Virus record (IMG/VR): IMGVR_UViG_3300001450_000167 | Location: 7,716 to 30,099 of that record | Direction: 5' to 3' (one strand) | Length of the DNA: 22,384 nt | DNA from: a virus | Shown here: positions 6,742-15,313 of the stretch, piece after piece | Numbering within the stretch: the stretch's first letter is position 1 | How the letters are laid out: each line of letters begins with the position of its first letter | Translations under genes and position numbers: made by a program | Notes under the pieces: model-generated | Databases searched by the model: none | The model's input: the letters and a program-made list of their open reading frames with translations, nothing else | What the model was told of the DNA's origin: nothing

Positions 6742-7155
6742 TTAATAAAGTTTTTTAGTTAGCTCATGAGATTTTCTGGGATCTTTTGTCCATCCAAGTT
6801 TTTCATGAGTGTTAATTAAGTGTTGATTACCAGTTATAGTAAACATATATCTATATCCAGAAGAGTTAGCTACGTTCTCTGCACCTTTAATCAACAGCTC
6901 TAACGCTTCTTTTCTATCTTTGTTCTTGTATTCAGGATTAGAAATAACCCATTCAAGTATTGCTGCTTTTGAGTTTGTAGTATATAAAAACCCAGCAACA
7001 ACACCTATATTATCTTTTTCAACAATAAAACCACTAGTACCATTACCTGGTAAAAAATCTTTTGGTGGAGCAGTTCCCCAACCTCTCCAGTTTTCCCACC
7101 ACACTTTTAAAGTTTCGTAGTCTTTTTCTATTAAATTTCTTATATTAAATTCCAT
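6742..7155 (-). CDS. GNAT-family N-acetyltransferase-like protein
   Basis: This 137-residue protein has the size and strand-helix order of a minimal GNAT domain, which transfers acetyl from acetyl-CoA to an amine. GFIVEKDNIGVVAGFLYT (42-59) fits strands 2-3, AILEWVISNPEYKNKDRKEA (65-84) fits strand 4 and the start of motif A, and the segment around YMFTITGNQHLINTHEKLGW (103-122) fits the C-terminal motif with its usual LGW ending. The pyrophosphate-binding R/Q-x-x-G-x-G/A loop is poor: the place holds NKDRKEALELL with no glycine, so activity is uncertain. It sits inside the tail block and is coupled to the hub gene by TAATG and to the next gene by a 1-nt gap. Possible targets are a virion protein or a host factor; the sequence does not say which. 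Confidence 0.7.
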   Translation of the reverse strand: MEFNIRNLIEKDYETLKVWWENWRGWGTAPPKDFLPGNGTSGFIVEKDNIGVVAGFLYTTNSKAAILEWVISNPEYKNKDRKEALELLIKGAENVANSSGYRYMFTITGNQHLINTHEKLGWTKDPRKSHELTKKLY

Positions 7156-8873
7156 TATGAGGATATTGTATATGTTGTACCTATTGTAAAAATTTCTTTA
7201 AAATTAAAAGGATCAGTAGATTGATCTGTTTGTATCTTAGCTGTTAAATAATAACCTTTTAAACCAGTCATTTTGTTTCCAGAAATAACTTCACCTGGCC
7301 TTATTGGGTAGAAATTAGGATCAGCTGTGTTGTTGTTTGTAATTTTTTGAACTATATTTGCAACATATAGATTTTCTTTTCTGTCAAAACCAGCGTGTTT
7401 AGGTTGAGAAGTAATTGGATCCGTGTAATATCCCTCTTTGTAACTAAGTATAGTATCTGAATTGTCTGTAAACTCTCTTTCTACATTGTTTTGAATATCA
7501 AAACCTTGTTCACTACTAGTTAAGTTTTTCATTTCCCAACCATTAGAACCTTCGTAATTTATTGTGTTAAAGTTCTTCTTAGAAGATGGACTAACATTAA
7601 ATATAAAAGTTATACTAGAAGGCTCTGGTGTTAATCCATAGAAACTGTTTCTAAGATTATTACTATAATGAAGCCAAGATTGAGCACCAGTAAAAGAGTA
7701 GTAATTACTTTTTATACTACCCATAAACAATGGTTTATATTTAGAGAAACTAACCCAACCTCTTATATCGTCATCAAAAGATATTGTTTTATAATCATCT
7801 ATAGCGTCAGGAGTAGATAAGTGTTTTTGTATTGAGTTTATGTAATTTTTATTATTAATATCAAAACCACCAACAACTTTATCTTTAACCCACTTTGAAA
7901 ACAAACATGTTTCAGCATTGGCAGCACCAGTGTCTACAGCTACATCTATACTTACTGTTATTATTAATGTTTTTGGTATTGGTGAAGTTTCTATATCTAC
8001 TACTATAGGAGTTCCTGGCTGACCTGACGCTAATTCAACATCCATTCCTAACTCTATACTATCTAAATAATCTGAAGTAACATAAAACTGATTGCTATCT
8101 AAAGTGTTTTCAGTATAAACTTCTCCACTAACTGAGAATAATTGATTATCATTTAGTATTTTACCTAACTCGTCTCTAAAAAAGTCATACATGCCGTAAC
8201 CTGATATTTCAGTTAATCCGTCCCTAGAAAGTCTTAGTATAGCACCTCTATTAGCATCAGCAAAATATCTTCTAAATCCATAGTAAGCGAAAGACTCTGG
8301 GTTTTGGCTTATACCATAGTCACCCTCGTAAGGAGTTACAGTTCCAATAACGTTTTGAGAAGTTGTTACTGTTCCACCTCCTTCAGCTGAGTATATAGCA
8401 TCTTTATCTATCAACGCTCTACTTACTTTGTTTTCTTGAAAAACTGTTAAATCAGTATCTCTAGCATGTATCAATTGTATAGTGCCTTTTCCTGGATCAA
8501 CTGTTCGAGTTATGTCTTCTCCAATTGGAAACACATTAGTATTATTTACTCCTGTTCTAGAGTTAAATACACCTGAATATATTAAAGAACTTGATCTAAC
8601 TTTCAAATCATCGTCTTCTTCAGATAAAAAAGCTCTAGGACCAATTTGAGTAAAAGAGTTATTATATCCCCCTCTTATTCTAGATTCTTCTACGTAAAAA
8701 TTAGTTTCAGAATCTGAAGGATCAAAAATAGGGTAATTTATCTCATCAGCCCATGGTAAGCTAGGCCAATAGTCAAAACCATAATTAGATTGACTTGACG
8801 AACCAGCATCTGGATTAGCCATTCTCTTTAACAAAAAGGAATTAAAAAAACAAACTTCTACTTTAACACTCAT
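7155..8873 (-). CDS. Tail hub/stabilisation protein, C-terminal part encoded separately
   Basis: The product is 572 residues. Residues 60-260 read like the late section of crAss-like stabilisation proteins: ESRIRGGYNNSF (63-74), SSSLIYSGVFNSRTGVNNTN (94-113), HARDTDLTVFQENKVSRAL (136-154), VTPYEGDYGISQNPESFAYY (179-198) and RLSRDGLTEISGYGMYDFFRDEL (split around 214-236). These are beta-propeller blades. The LGM motif at 275-277 begins an inserted domain like that in the upstream gene. ATG 8873 lies 30 nt after the upstream TAG, in the same frame, behind an A/T leader (TAATTATAAT) with no Shine-Dalgarno sequence. M18 is a possible alternative start. The stop shares one base with the next ATG (TAATG). 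Both hub parts probably assemble together; that is inference. Confidence 0.77.
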   Translation of the reverse strand: MSVKVEVCFFNSFLLKRMANPDAGSSSQSNYGFDYWPSLPWADEINYPIFDPSDSETNFYVEESRIRGGYNNSFTQIGPRAFLSEEDDDLKVRSSSLIYSGVFNSRTGVNNTNVFPIGEDITRTVDPGKGTIQLIHARDTDLTVFQENKVSRALIDKDAIYSAEGGGTVTTSQNVIGTVTPYEGDYGISQNPESFAYYGFRRYFADANRGAILRLSRDGLTEISGYGMYDFFRDELGKILNDNQLFSVSGEVYTENTLDSNQFYVTSDYLDSIELGMDVELASGQPGTPIVVDIETSPIPKTLIITVSIDVAVDTGAANAETCLFSKWVKDKVVGGFDINNKNYINSIQKHLSTPDAIDDYKTISFDDDIRGWVSFSKYKPLFMGSIKSNYYSFTGAQSWLHYSNNLRNSFYGLTPEPSSITFIFNVSPSSKKNFNTINYEGSNGWEMKNLTSSEQGFDIQNNVEREFTDNSDTILSYKEGYYTDPITSQPKHAGFDRKENLYVANIVQKITNNNTADPNFYPIRPGEVISGNKMTGLKGYYLTAKIQTDQSTDPFNFKEIFTIGTTYTISS

Positions 8874-8903
8874 ATTATAATTACATGTTTATATTAAATA
8901 CTA

Positions 8904-11900
8904 CTATGCTGGCCATATTGTTGTACAGTTAAAAGGTCCGCTTATTTGATAACCAGGTTTAACTTTCCATGTTACAGTTAGTTGTCTATTTAATGATTGG
9001 CTACTACCGGTAGCGTCATATACTTTCAACTTAGCTCTAAACGTTGTTGTACAATCTAAAGCTCCTGAATCTGGAAGCCAATAAGTAGGGTTATTCTGTG
9101 GTCCACTTGGATTACCCCAACCGGATGTATCTACATAAGGTCCACTATCTTTATAATTTTGTTCTGGTGGAGGTACTGTAGTAGGTGTAGATGATATTTT
9201 ACCAAAAGCATTACCTGAATTAAAAGGTGGAAATATTTCACTAAGTATATTAAGAGCTCTAACTTTAGTAGCTAACACTTGTGGTAGCACAGAGACTGAT
9301 CCAGTTCCTTGAAAAGGTGGGACAGTTGCTGCAGCTGCATAAGAAGTATTTGCTACAGCTATGTACCTATTACCCATAACATTATTACCAAATGTGCCAC
9401 CTCCATAATAGGTCATAGGGTAAGATCCATCAGGTGTGTACTCTTGCCAACCACCAGCTCCAGCATTTAGTTTAGGCCAATAAAACTCTAAAGACTCAAG
9501 TAACCAAAAAACACCAATTGTTTTTGCTTTATCATTAAAATTATTAGCTGGTAGATTATAATTAGGATTGTTTACAGAGGAACCATTTATTCCGTCTAAT
9601 TGAATCAATTGGCACCAGTCTGAATTAGGATCTGAAGGATTCCATGAAAGGCTTGGAAAAGCTATATTTGTTTCTCTAGCAGGTTCACCGCTTAAGTCTA
9701 TATCGGTCAAAGAAACTAAACCAGTGGCTGGGTTTATATTATCCCAAGCTGGCATAATGTTTGAAAATCTATTATCTGGAGCTATAGTTATAAAGTTTTG
9801 AACTGGTTGACCTTGACTATTTAAGTTTTCAAACTTAAGGTTAAAAGTATAGTTTTCAGGTACAAAAGAAGACTGGGTATAAACTTTGTATTGCAACACT
9901 CTCATTCTAAAAGTGTTGTCTAAGTTATTTTTTACAATATCAAATAATGGTGTAGGAGTGTTAGGTATTGTATTTCCTAGCCCATCTAAAACACTGACTA
10001 TAGTAACGTTTGTATTAGGGTCGTTTATAGGACTACCAGAAGCTGTTAAAGGGTAAAAAGAAGTGGTTACAAATTGATTTACATCAAAAGCCTCAGTATA
10101 AGCAAAGTTTAAATCTTCAAAGCTAGTTGCTATAGAGTTGTCATTGGTAACAATTGCAGAATTAAGTTCTGCTATTAATCCACTTGTAGAAGTTTCGTAA
10201 AATATGTCTAAATTAGAAAGCACGGGTCTTGTTTCATAAACACCTAAACCAGGTTGAGATCCTATCAATACATCATCAGGAACAGTATTATTTGCTCCCT
10301 TTGGGCTAAAACCACCAGGTATACCTATTGCTTTTTCTGTTGCTATTTGGCCTATTAAAGGATTTGAATCTGTAGTTATTTCAGCAAATTTAGGAAATTG
10401 ACCTTGAAAAAATTGTGAACTACCTTGTATACTGTAAAAAGGACTTATACCTCTAGCCATGTCGGGAGAACCTGGGTTTATAAATTCAATATCACCGTTA
10501 TCATCTAATTTCCAAGCATCACCATATGTAGTAGGGCCGACGACTGCGTTAATAAATTCATACGCGTTTGAAGCCCATTTGTATCCAGATTTTGTTTCGT
10601 CTAAACCTAAATCTTTCCAATTACCAATTCTAGTAACCTCATCAGATACTAAACTTGGATAGTATTGGTTTTCTTTACCCTGTTGTTGACCTAGTTGATT
10701 TGCGTTATTACCCTCGAATATATTAACTCTTCCATATAACTCTACAGAAGAAGCAAATTGTTTGTCCTGTGCTCCTACTTCTTTTAAATCTCTTGGAATT
10801 TTATTTATATTGTCATTTATAAGAACTATAAAAGCTTCGTCACCAACTAAGTTATAACGATCCGTTGAGGTTGGTGCTATTGGTGCTGGGAAGTTTGCTT
10901 GGCTTCCATTCGCTTTAATAACATCTTGCCAGCTTTTTGGATAACCATTTAAAATACCAGGAAGATATACATTATAATACTCTTGTTCTTGTTGTTTTAC
11001 TACTATTTTAAAACTATACCAACCTAAAGGATTAGTTGTGTCAAACAGTCCAGGATAACCAAACTGAGAATCTGTTTCTGGAACAACATCTTGAAATAAA
11101 ACTTTTAAACTATTGCCAGGCCAAAGGTTAGGTTCACCAGTACCACTTGTTGCACTATCATACAAAGGTTGGCCAGCATTTCTATAAGGACTATATATTG
11201 AAGAGCCTACAAAACCAACAAGACCTTCTAATGTATCGTTAGCAGATAATATAACATCTGAATGTCTTCCATATCTATCAACTAGAACTACACCCACCTG
11301 ATAGGTTCTATTACCTTTTAATGTATGGTTTTGATATTCTTTGCGAAGAACAGGTGGAGAAAAAGAATCAGAAACAGTGTCTTTATATTTTTGATCAGCA
11401 CTTACCGTATAAGACAAATTACTTAATGAAGGGTTTTTAGCTACAAAATTACCGTAAACAACTCTATTACCCACAGACTCTTGAGTCAATGCTCTTATAG
11501 GGACTTTGTCATAAACTCTTGACAATTCGTTTTCAGGTAAAGTTCTTATAGGCTTTTTAGACTTGTAAGTATACTTAAAGTCGGTTGTATTAGTTAATAA
11601 TAAATCTTGCTGTTTTATAGTATCTAATACTTTTAAGCTTAAATCATCAGCTGCTTTATATATTATATCTATCTCTTTTACTTTTAATTTATCAACAATC
11701 TCACTAAAAGATCCGTAATTATTGCTAGATATATTGTAAGGTGCTAGTTGTATTATTACGTTAACAGTAGGATCTGTTCCCCCTATTTCAGTCTCTGGTA
11801 TTAATATAGTTTCACCAATATTCCAATTATTACCACCATTAACAACATTTATACTTATACCTGGTTTAGGTGGTCCAGAGACAGTAACATTTAATTCAGC

Positions 11901-13283
11901 TGAATTATTACCATTTAAATTCACATAAAAAACATCGTTATAAATACCTGCAGCATCATTAAAATCACCAGTATTTGTTATAGAACCTGCTAAATTAGGA
12001 GCGTTTAACAATACGCCTGATAGCGATTCATCCGCATAGTTATTAGGTGATGGTATAGTTAATCCTATTTGATTGACTTTGTTTTCCATAAAAGAAACTA
12101 TACTACTACTTAAAGCATTTGTTCTATCTGTCTTTTTCCAAGTAAAAGGACTAGTAGCAGTAGGTGATGTAATTATATTACTTCCTATATCTTCATAATT
12201 AAAAACGTCTTGAAAGTAACCATCTTGTTCAGGTATAAAAATATCTTGTGAAAAAGGAGCTATAGGAGAATACTCGTTATCATCAAATTTAAATCTATAA
12301 GATAGTTTAATAAACTTATCTTTTAAAAACTTTTTATCACCTTGAAAACCAGATTCATAAAAAGGGTTAGCTCCAACTATAATAACATCACCTATATTAA
12401 GAGAAACTCCTTCATCTACGGTTATTGTAAATAGAGAGTTGGTTACACTTCCTATATTTGTTATCTTAGGGTAAGGTTTAGGTATTGTAGCTCCATTGCT
12501 TGATCTAATAGCAATAGACATTCCTAATCTAATATATCCCTTTGGTTGGCTAGTTGGCAACGCTTCAAGAGTTATAGACGTACCCACAGCGTTTGACGCA
12601 ACTGTAAAATCGTTAAATAAGGGTAATTCTTTGCTAACAACATCTTTCATTGTTGATAAAACAACACCTTTGTCACCATACTCGTAATATTTTATAGGCT
12701 CATATGGATAATATTTAGCAACAGATACGTGGTCTTCATTATAGTAATATGGATTACCATCGCTAAAAGGATTTGATATAGCTCTATCTACATTAAACTT
12801 TCTAGGTTGATTTCTATTATCTGTAAAGTAAAATTGATTTTCTACTATATTAGTACCTGTTATTGGATGGGTTTTTGAAAAATTCAACCACGCGCCACCA
12901 ATTAGGAGCGTAGAAGAGCCAGATAACAAGCTATACATAACTATATAACATTCAGCTTTTGAAGGCTTTGTAGAGCTTATAGGAACATTAGCATGATTAG
13001 AAAGAGTAGTACCAGAACTATCATTCCAATTAGTTAAGAAAGCAAATATTCTATCATTATTAGTGTCCATGTGAAAACCAATAATTTCTAAGTTTTTAAC
13101 GTTTAAGCCAAAGTCTGTTAATAAAGAGTTTCCAACTATGTTTTCAACAGCGCCAACATCTGGACCTTCTGATCTACTTACTTGAATATTTACAGCATCT
13201 CTATATTCTCCATTTGGAATAAGTCTAGCGTCAATATCCTTATTCATTTTGGATTTAATAAAATTATTCTTTGTTTCAGCCAT
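8904..13283 (-). CDS. Tail hub/stabilisation protein, N-terminal two thirds (P22 gp10-like)
   Basis: This 1459-residue protein is the likely main body of the short tail. Its N-terminus has the diagnostic stabilisation-protein start SKMNKDIDARLIPNGEYRDA (11-30) followed by QVSRSEGPDVGAVENIVGN (34-52). Beta-propeller-like strands follow, such as ENQFYFTDNRNQPRKFNVD (148-166) and IKLSYRFKFDDNEYSPIAPF (325-344). Small inserted beta domains are visible: one with LGM at 253-255, and a glycine-rich one near 475-500 (NIGETILIPETEIGGTD). The C-terminus ends GPFNCTTIWPA, then TAG TAG and, three codons later, TAA, all in one frame. The following gene starts in that same frame and carries segments that normally lie further along this protein, so this looks like the first part of a split hub. 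The middle and C-terminal thirds are not recognisable. Confidence 0.8.
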   Translation of the reverse strand: MAETKNNFIKSKMNKDIDARLIPNGEYRDAVNIQVSRSEGPDVGAVENIVGNSLLTDFGLNVKNLEIIGFHMDTNNDRIFAFLTNWNDSSGTTLSNHANVPISSTKPSKAECYIVMYSLLSGSSTLLIGGAWLNFSKTHPITGTNIVENQFYFTDNRNQPRKFNVDRAISNPFSDGNPYYYNEDHVSVAKYYPYEPIKYYEYGDKGVVLSTMKDVVSKELPLFNDFTVASNAVGTSITLEALPTSQPKGYIRLGMSIAIRSSNGATIPKPYPKITNIGSVTNSLFTITVDEGVSLNIGDVIIVGANPFYESGFQGDKKFLKDKFIKLSYRFKFDDNEYSPIAPFSQDIFIPEQDGYFQDVFNYEDIGSNIITSPTATSPFTWKKTDRTNALSSSIVSFMENKVNQIGLTIPSPNNYADESLSGVLLNAPNLAGSITNTGDFNDAAGIYNDVFYVNLNGNNSAELNVTVSGPPKPGISINVVNGGNNWNIGETILIPETEIGGTDPTVNVIIQLAPYNISSNNYGSFSEIVDKLKVKEIDIIYKAADDLSLKVLDTIKQQDLLLTNTTDFKYTYKSKKPIRTLPENELSRVYDKVPIRALTQESVGNRVVYGNFVAKNPSLSNLSYTVSADQKYKDTVSDSFSPPVLRKEYQNHTLKGNRTYQVGVVLVDRYGRHSDVILSANDTLEGLVGFVGSSIYSPYRNAGQPLYDSATSGTGEPNLWPGNSLKVLFQDVVPETDSQFGYPGLFDTTNPLGWYSFKIVVKQQEQEYYNVYLPGILNGYPKSWQDVIKANGSQANFPAPIAPTSTDRYNLVGDEAFIVLINDNINKIPRDLKEVGAQDKQFASSVELYGRVNIFEGNNANQLGQQQGKENQYYPSLVSDEVTRIGNWKDLGLDETKSGYKWASNAYEFINAVVGPTTYGDAWKLDDNGDIEFINPGSPDMARGISPFYSIQGSSQFFQGQFPKFAEITTDSNPLIGQIATEKAIGIPGGFSPKGANNTVPDDVLIGSQPGLGVYETRPVLSNLDIFYETSTSGLIAELNSAIVTNDNSIATSFEDLNFAYTEAFDVNQFVTTSFYPLTASGSPINDPNTNVTIVSVLDGLGNTIPNTPTPLFDIVKNNLDNTFRMRVLQYKVYTQSSFVPENYTFNLKFENLNSQGQPVQNFITIAPDNRFSNIMPAWDNINPATGLVSLTDIDLSGEPARETNIAFPSLSWNPSDPNSDWCQLIQLDGINGSSVNNPNYNLPANNFNDKAKTIGVFWLLESLEFYWPKLNAGAGGWQEYTPDGSYPMTYYGGGTFGNNVMGNRYIAVANTSYAAAATVPPFQGTGSVSVLPQVLATKVRALNILSEIFPPFNSGNAFGKISSTPTTVPPPEQNYKDSGPYVDTSGWGNPSGPQNNPTYWLPDSGALDCTTTFRAKLKVYDATGSSQSLNRQLTVTWKVKPGYQISGPFNCTTIWPA

Positions 13284-15256: not shown

Positions 15257-15268
15257 TTTAGTATTTTT

Positions 15269-15297
15269 AAAAAAAAAGGGTGGCGAAATACCACCCT
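15269..15297 (-). terminator. Intrinsic terminator after the 259-residue gene
   Basis: On the minus strand AGGGTGG pairs with CCACCCT (7 bp, possibly 8 with an inner U-G pair) around the loop TATTTCG, followed by nine T residues. It begins 16 nt after the TAA of the upstream gene. The U tract ends only about 12 nt before the next start codon (15256), so downstream genes must be reached by read-through, antitermination or a promoter upstream of the hairpin. Confidence 0.92.
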
Positions 15298-15313
15298 AAT
15301 ATATAGTTACATG

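Follow-up and report, generated by a model that had tools for sequence, protein, structure and literature searches.

Two adjacent genes that probably encode the halves of a crassvirus-type muzzle in a clade of uncultured, mostly aquatic phages

Two adjacent genes in a 22,384-nucleotide stretch of viral DNA (hereafter the window; part of the 30,099-base IMG/VR record IMGVR_UViG_3300001450_000167) probably encode the two halves of a crassvirus-type muzzle that was once a single chain, was divided by one fission within the insertion that forms its tip, and gained a cadherin-like tail on its first half (probability about 0.8). Both genes lie on the minus strand. Gene A (8904..13283; 1459 aa, ATG start, stop included) is the putative N-terminal muzzle chain and gene B (7155..8873; 572 aa, ATG start, stop included) the putative C-terminal chain, each delimited by its ORF and profile matches, with an intergenic spacer of 30 nt between them (8874..8903, minus strand). 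The muzzle controls ejection and is highly conserved among crassviruses, according to the accessible text of PMC10172136.

No Pfam domains were found in A, and B carries crAss_MUZ_C (residues 408–507; E = 1.3e-10, above its cut-off). PHROG 14478 (phrog_14478; 1474 positions, ‘virion structural protein’) corresponds to A at its positions 2–176 and to B at its positions 920–1096, and these matches to separate parts of one family were the first hint that both products belong to one chain elsewhere. A first-pass annotation of the window had named the pair a split tail hub or stabilisation protein; the stabilisation protein can be kept, as this is the crassvirus muzzle or nozzle, annotated ‘stabilization protein’ in gut phages, and the fibre hub was set aside. 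The N-terminal signature cited there (MNKDIDARLIPNGEYRDA) was located at A residues 13–30, and both of the blade sequences (VTPYEGDYGISQNPESF and RLSRDGLTEIS) were located in B. Among 50,697 phage records, no single place covered 80% of A or of B and there was no isolate of the split clade, with Cellulophaga phages (31–35% identity) at the top among the matches listed. The 137-aa gene that follows B (window 6742–7155) has a match to phrog_17252 and a weak one to the GNAT acetyltransferase family; in Cellulophaga phage phi38:1, a 133-aa gene is next after the single-chain muzzle.

Searches of PDB sequences with A, B, and the B profile returned nothing at E ≤ 1, and the structure was therefore taken from a predicted model. 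The AlphaFold model of B (43 sequences) had a mean pLDDT of 72, with values <50 for residues 1–57 and 61–122 and mostly >70 for the rest. Its best PDB match was the PhicrAss001 muzzle gp44 (Foldseek E = 2.4e-10; VIA Z = 14.8, 298 residues), while the best chain other than gp44 reached a VIA Z of 11.6. A propeller fold was found, in the AlphaFold model, for B only. The nozzle and hub proteins of podoviruses share this fold (P22 gp10, Sf6 gp8, and SU10, VIA Z about 9–11 against the B model; T7, with chains among the Foldseek matches of the B model), but they are single chains and lie farther from the B model than gp44 does. The ~120 low-confidence residues at the N-terminus of B would fit a segment that needs A, and a failure of prediction would look alike. 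When the stops were read through to model the junction (A 520 to B 150), the model had a low mean pLDDT of 51 and no PDB match at E ≤ 0.001.

The likeness to gp44 (PDB 7qok, 7qol; accessible text of PMC10172136) covers both ends of the muzzle. Using profile-profile alignment with 12 gut and Cellulophaga muzzle proteins, A residues 1–212, the N-terminal part with the first propeller blades (12648..13283, minus strand), were equivalent to gp44 1–186 (E = 4.8e-11), and B residues 122–507, the remaining propeller blades (7353..8510, minus strand), to gp44 1055–1330 (E = 9.6e-16). B residues 1–121 hold a strand motif (xEVxxFN) and the segment preceding the propeller (8511..8873, minus strand). There was no confident profile match to gp44 for A 213–1459, comprising the middle (213–829) and the tail. 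According to the same source text, propeller blade 3 of gp44 contains an insertion, the IG2 domain (318–1021), which serves as the platform of the crass fold. As A 212 corresponds to gp44 186 and B 122 to gp44 1055, the break falls within this tip insertion, such that the propeller is itself split, with the first blades in A and the rest in B. On gp44, the break probably lies in the second segment of the tip insertion, at about 940–1012, a place that we infer because the middle and tail of A have no confident match there. Attempts at an exact position using the single gp44 sequence and sub-profiles gave no placement, and for the 12 gut-type sequences the flanks align to gp44 and the junction itself is of low confidence. 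The profile alignments and crAss_MUZ_C establish homology to the N- and C-terminal propeller regions of the muzzle, but gp44 is one chain of 1371 aa, while the present system has two, the first of which (A) carries an additional cadherin-like tail. Since the two parts were two ORFs in 73/73 loci with both parts, and never one ORF (IMG/VR; A scan, best 80 of 435), A and B are filed as a muzzle-like split relative and not as a standard member.

Relatives were gathered from IMG/VR by scans with A and B (94 loci) and with the ctfjg026 and phi38:1 single chains (85 more loci; ctfjg026 scan, best 80 of 181). Together with the window and named phages, 186 sequences were classified by profile as split (n = 74), single-chain (n = 89), N-terminal part only (n = 22), or B part only (n = 1), counts that say nothing on natural frequency because A, B, or single-chain sequences were the queries with which the loci were picked. 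The sequences with one part alone (22 N-only, one B-only) look like contig ends. The 74 split loci of the classification, and of the motif and tail-HMM counts below, include L137, which was rejected as an independent split: its homology is continuous within one frame that has two internal stops. These stops, TAA and TGA, lie at L137:11723 and 12482 in the frame of a single-chain muzzle. Several other loci were irregular in their own ways. In L101 (Maribacter phage Panino), the muzzle runs as a single chain until a frameshift near 8998, in the propeller part, and the gene is annotated as two proteins; in L037 (14480–16433), B consists of two overlapping ORFs in different frames. The muzzle region of L206 (PV686213, Bohxovirus) is annotated as many tiny ORFs, as expected if a stop codon were reassigned and the standard code had been used. 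Two muzzle matches in cr108_1 lie in one chain of 2031 aa.

Single-chain muzzles of aquatic phages, among them Cellulophaga phage phi38:1 gp97, Flavobacterium phage elemoA gp25, and Podoviridae sp. ctfjg026 UOF82506 (annotated ‘structural protein’ or ‘virion structural protein’), resemble the pair in gene place, after the portal and the structural genes that come behind it, and in colinearity. Colinearity was assessed with profiles of 43 A and B rows, complete sets that leave out L037 and five B proteins cut by contig ends, and 39 single-chain rows, from which L101 and L177 were dropped. In these alignments (hhalign), A 1–829 corresponded to phi38:1 gp97 1–466 (E = 1e-70) and B 61–447 to gp97 876–1164 (E = 4e-46), with a weak colinear match between them of A 1012–1034 to gp97 814–836 and ctfjg026 932–954 (E = 0.004). 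This conserved motif (GLGVYETRPVLSNLDIFYETSTS; 10182..10250, minus strand) is the last stretch of A recognisably common with the single chains. Two landmarks flank the break: the A motif (Y/F)ET.P...(F/W)YE, which equals the single-chain FETEP...YE motif in the alignments, and the opening of B, xEVKYFN, which by eye equals the single-chain AIIDLDFFNCF strand. In single chains, the loop between the landmarks measures 22–46 residues (median, 34; n = 40), while in split genomes A extends 250–935 residues beyond its landmark (median, 434; n = 43). B starts 7–10 residues ahead of the strand motif in 43/43 cases, with L137 left out. The single chains thus differ from the pair in the short loop at the break site and in having no tail. 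The expectation from the window alone, that both products would prove to be parts of one homologue, holds to the extent that both are colinear to gp97; the cut is not at adjacent residues, the loop having been replaced by the tail of A and a new start on B.

That tail, A residues 1031–1459 (8907..10193, minus strand), has no counterpart in single-chain homologues. Among 40 of the 43 tails, 254/780 pairs were alike (BLASTP, E ≤ 1e-3). The tail profile resembled cadherin-type extracellular repeats, with 21 of the 23 PDB matches listed being protocadherins or cadherins (best E = 3.4e-5), and the B alignment and profile, used as a control, had no PDB match at E ≤ 1. Single tails barely reach the Pfam Cadherin family (3/40 members at E ≤ 5; best, 0.0092), being below the cut-off or unmatched. 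A tail HMM matched 71/74 split loci, 14/22 N-only loci, and 0/89 single-chain loci, with no match in any other ORF of the examined loci; the restriction to A ORFs of split or N-only loci places the gain of the tail at the split or soon after it. Among the examined loci, there was no intermediate whose single chain held the tail domain within the loop. From its profile, the tail appears to be a new adhesion-like extension.

A second feature sets B apart within the split loci. A motif (consensus AAAAA[C/T]AAGT[G/A]AT[A/T]AT) occurred within 90 nt before B in 52/74 split loci, compared to 1.3 expected by shuffling; the other 22, as sorted by eye, comprised near variants (n = 13), start-choice artefacts (n = 2; L037 and L137), and loci where the motif is absent (n = 7). 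The window has a degenerate copy before B (ATGTAATTAT; 8877..8886, minus strand) and a second copy (ATGTAACTAT; 15303..15312, minus strand) after the stop of a 277-aa gene and before a GC hairpin (15278–15296) that lies ahead of a 248-aa ring-protein-like gene. The succession of motif and GC hairpin after the 277-aa gene was seen in the window (15257–15313), L001, L007, L045, L053, and others, and the hairpin before the ring-protein-like gene has a T-run in some genomes and none in others. Across the split loci, the motif preceded the 248-aa gene in 51/74, the 277-aa gene in 7/74, and the 218-aa gene in 3/67, and was found before none of A (0/74), the capsid (0/71), the portal (0/51), or the 406-aa gene (0/74). 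It accompanies B in L087–L091, where another gene parts A from B, and its frequency in single-chain loci is close or equal to that expected by chance. Ten whole records held 21 copies (1–3 each), compared to 2 for the pattern read backwards, and 20/21 copies were on the A/B strand, as judged against the loci. Of six further sites, four (L199–L202) were ahead of a small ORF and a Cpn60-like gene (Pfam E = 2e-32, L199 only) and two (L203–L204) were ahead of a run of small ORFs that includes a 201-aa ORF (weak Cpn10 match, E = 0.05, L204 only). This pattern of sequence fits a phage promoter heading operons; the motif could alternatively be an RNA-processing site.

The long, variable C-terminal tail of A, the promoter-like element of B's own, and the other gene that may stand between the two would agree with a functional parting of A and B, with only one of them serving as the muzzle and the other as a structural or receptor-binding protein in its own right. 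This is unlikely, however, as each product holds only part of one propeller and conservation is among the highest in the N-terminal region of A and in the propeller part of B.

The distribution of split and single chains was examined with two trees. In a four-protein tree (capsid, portal, 406-aa, and 248-aa proteins; 90/134 rows kept at <93% identity, 47 of them labelled split including L137), 46 split rows formed one clade (SH-aLRT = 100) amid single-chain lineages, in a topology with an outgroup that is not clean and three rows on long branches. In a tree of the muzzle ends (26/43 split rows, 18/39 single rows, and 12 gut-type outgroup rows), the split clade was again recovered (SH-aLRT = 100), with the marine single chains as its sister (support, 91). 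All 12 gut and Cellulophaga muzzles examined were single-chain, and as every outgroup row is single-chain, one fission is the simplest history, with the split derived once, in the common ancestor of a large phage clade that is uncultured and mostly aquatic. In their records, the relatives phi38:1 and phi13:2 are placed in the Pervagoviridae and Pachyviridae. Phage tail protein genes are known to undergo fission, and the proposal first made from the window, that an ancestral single gene was divided and its second part given a re-made start, is supported by the colinearity to one homologue and by the one split clade amid single-chain relatives. The opposite direction, with two genes ancestral and fusions giving rise to the single-chain muzzles of gut and marine lineages, is quite improbable: with the marine single chains as sister of the split clade (support, 91), the direction does rest on the outgroup, but no fewer than two fusions at one and the same site would be required by the 12/12 gut and Cellulophaga single chains, single-chain lineages surround the split clade in the four-protein tree, albeit with its imperfect outgroup, and the tail of A is restricted to the split clade.

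Reading from 13283 to 7155 in a single frame gives A, then TAG TAG TAT TTA ATA TAA, more codons, and ATG 8873, and this ATG is indeed 1470 codons from ATG 13283, as the first-pass annotation had counted. The shared frame that it offered as a sign of a divided gene proved uninformative. In 56 non-redundant junctions from the 73 loci holding both ORFs (window included), B was in the frame of A in 25, offset by 1 in 12, and offset by 2 in 19 (probability of at least 25 of 56 at 1/3 = 0.051, kinship ignored), leaving 31/56 distinct junctions out of frame, and a single 30-nt spacer is common to many of the in-frame junctions. The first stop of A was TAA in 39/56, TAG in 14/56, and TGA in 3/56, so that TAG TAG and then TAA within six codons, though present in the window, is not the general pattern. 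Frame and stop pattern are no evidence for a divided gene. The distance from the A stop to the B ATG was mostly 26–43 nt; A and B overlap in L002, and gaps of 5–7 nt occur in L009, L019, and L069. An extra ORF is inserted between A and B in L085–L091 (for example L087:9580–9972), in L086 with a weak NTP_transf_2 match (Pfam, E = 0.02), and its LVGGA...KDIDI stretch is one which we take to be typical of nucleotidyltransferases. An ORF with a similar LYLVGG stretch precedes the chaperonin genes in L201.

Among 11 MAG contigs that matched the B profile, both regions were present in six, and the split was found in 6/6; the same break in these six contigs and in 73 loci excludes the assembly error that had been raised at the outset. 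The out-of-frame junctions, mixed stops, gaps and overlap, and inserted ORF rule out read-through, recoding, or frameshifting as the mechanism of the clade. That A and B are nonetheless still one protein (by read-through, suppression, or frameshift), or that the stops in this record are assembly or sequencing errors, would agree with the window junction, in frame with only TAG, TAG, and TAA as stops, and with the stop reassignment described for some crass-like phages (TGA in a Zeta phage; accessible text of PMC12386605), but deserves hardly any credence given the junction frames and stops above, the overlap or near-overlap in L002, L009, and L019, the nucleotidyltransferase-like gene in L085–L091, the same break in MAG contigs, and the conserved position of the B start codon.

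With A and B as the halves of one muzzle, the ancestral fission probably occurred inside the insertion forming the distal tip domain (the IG2/crass region, nested in propeller blade 3). The N-terminal blades, and probably most of the tip insertion, stay with A, which gained a free C-terminal cadherin-like tail; B restarts just ahead of the conserved tip-region strand and supplies the remaining blades. A and B would be separate products, with a phage promoter of its own probably also serving B, and A would bind B before or during tail assembly, closing one propeller. Six A:B pairs may form the gate, with the tail of A projecting from the tail tip and possibly helping host-surface contact. We infer that A and B co-assemble into one muzzle. 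A fuller arrangement can be offered only tentatively, namely a gate propeller of two polypeptides in which the N-terminus of B completes a tip domain that A alone could not finish, the freed C-terminus of A has become a fast-evolving, cadherin-like host-contact arm, and B has its own late promoter, through which it could be produced without relying on the long A message. Just as speculative is the part of this arrangement in which the late promoter of B is one of at most three copies of a phage motif that also heads the chaperonin operon.

The literature searched yielded no report of a split muzzle, nor of one in two chains whose tip bears a free, adhesion-like end. For annotation, two adjacent ‘structural proteins’ in phages of this clade would represent one muzzle. 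The clade with two chains reveals where the muzzle tolerates a break, and it was at this site that a probable host-contact domain was added. The two-chain muzzle may thereby serve as a natural two-component system for testing how the gate assembles and opens.
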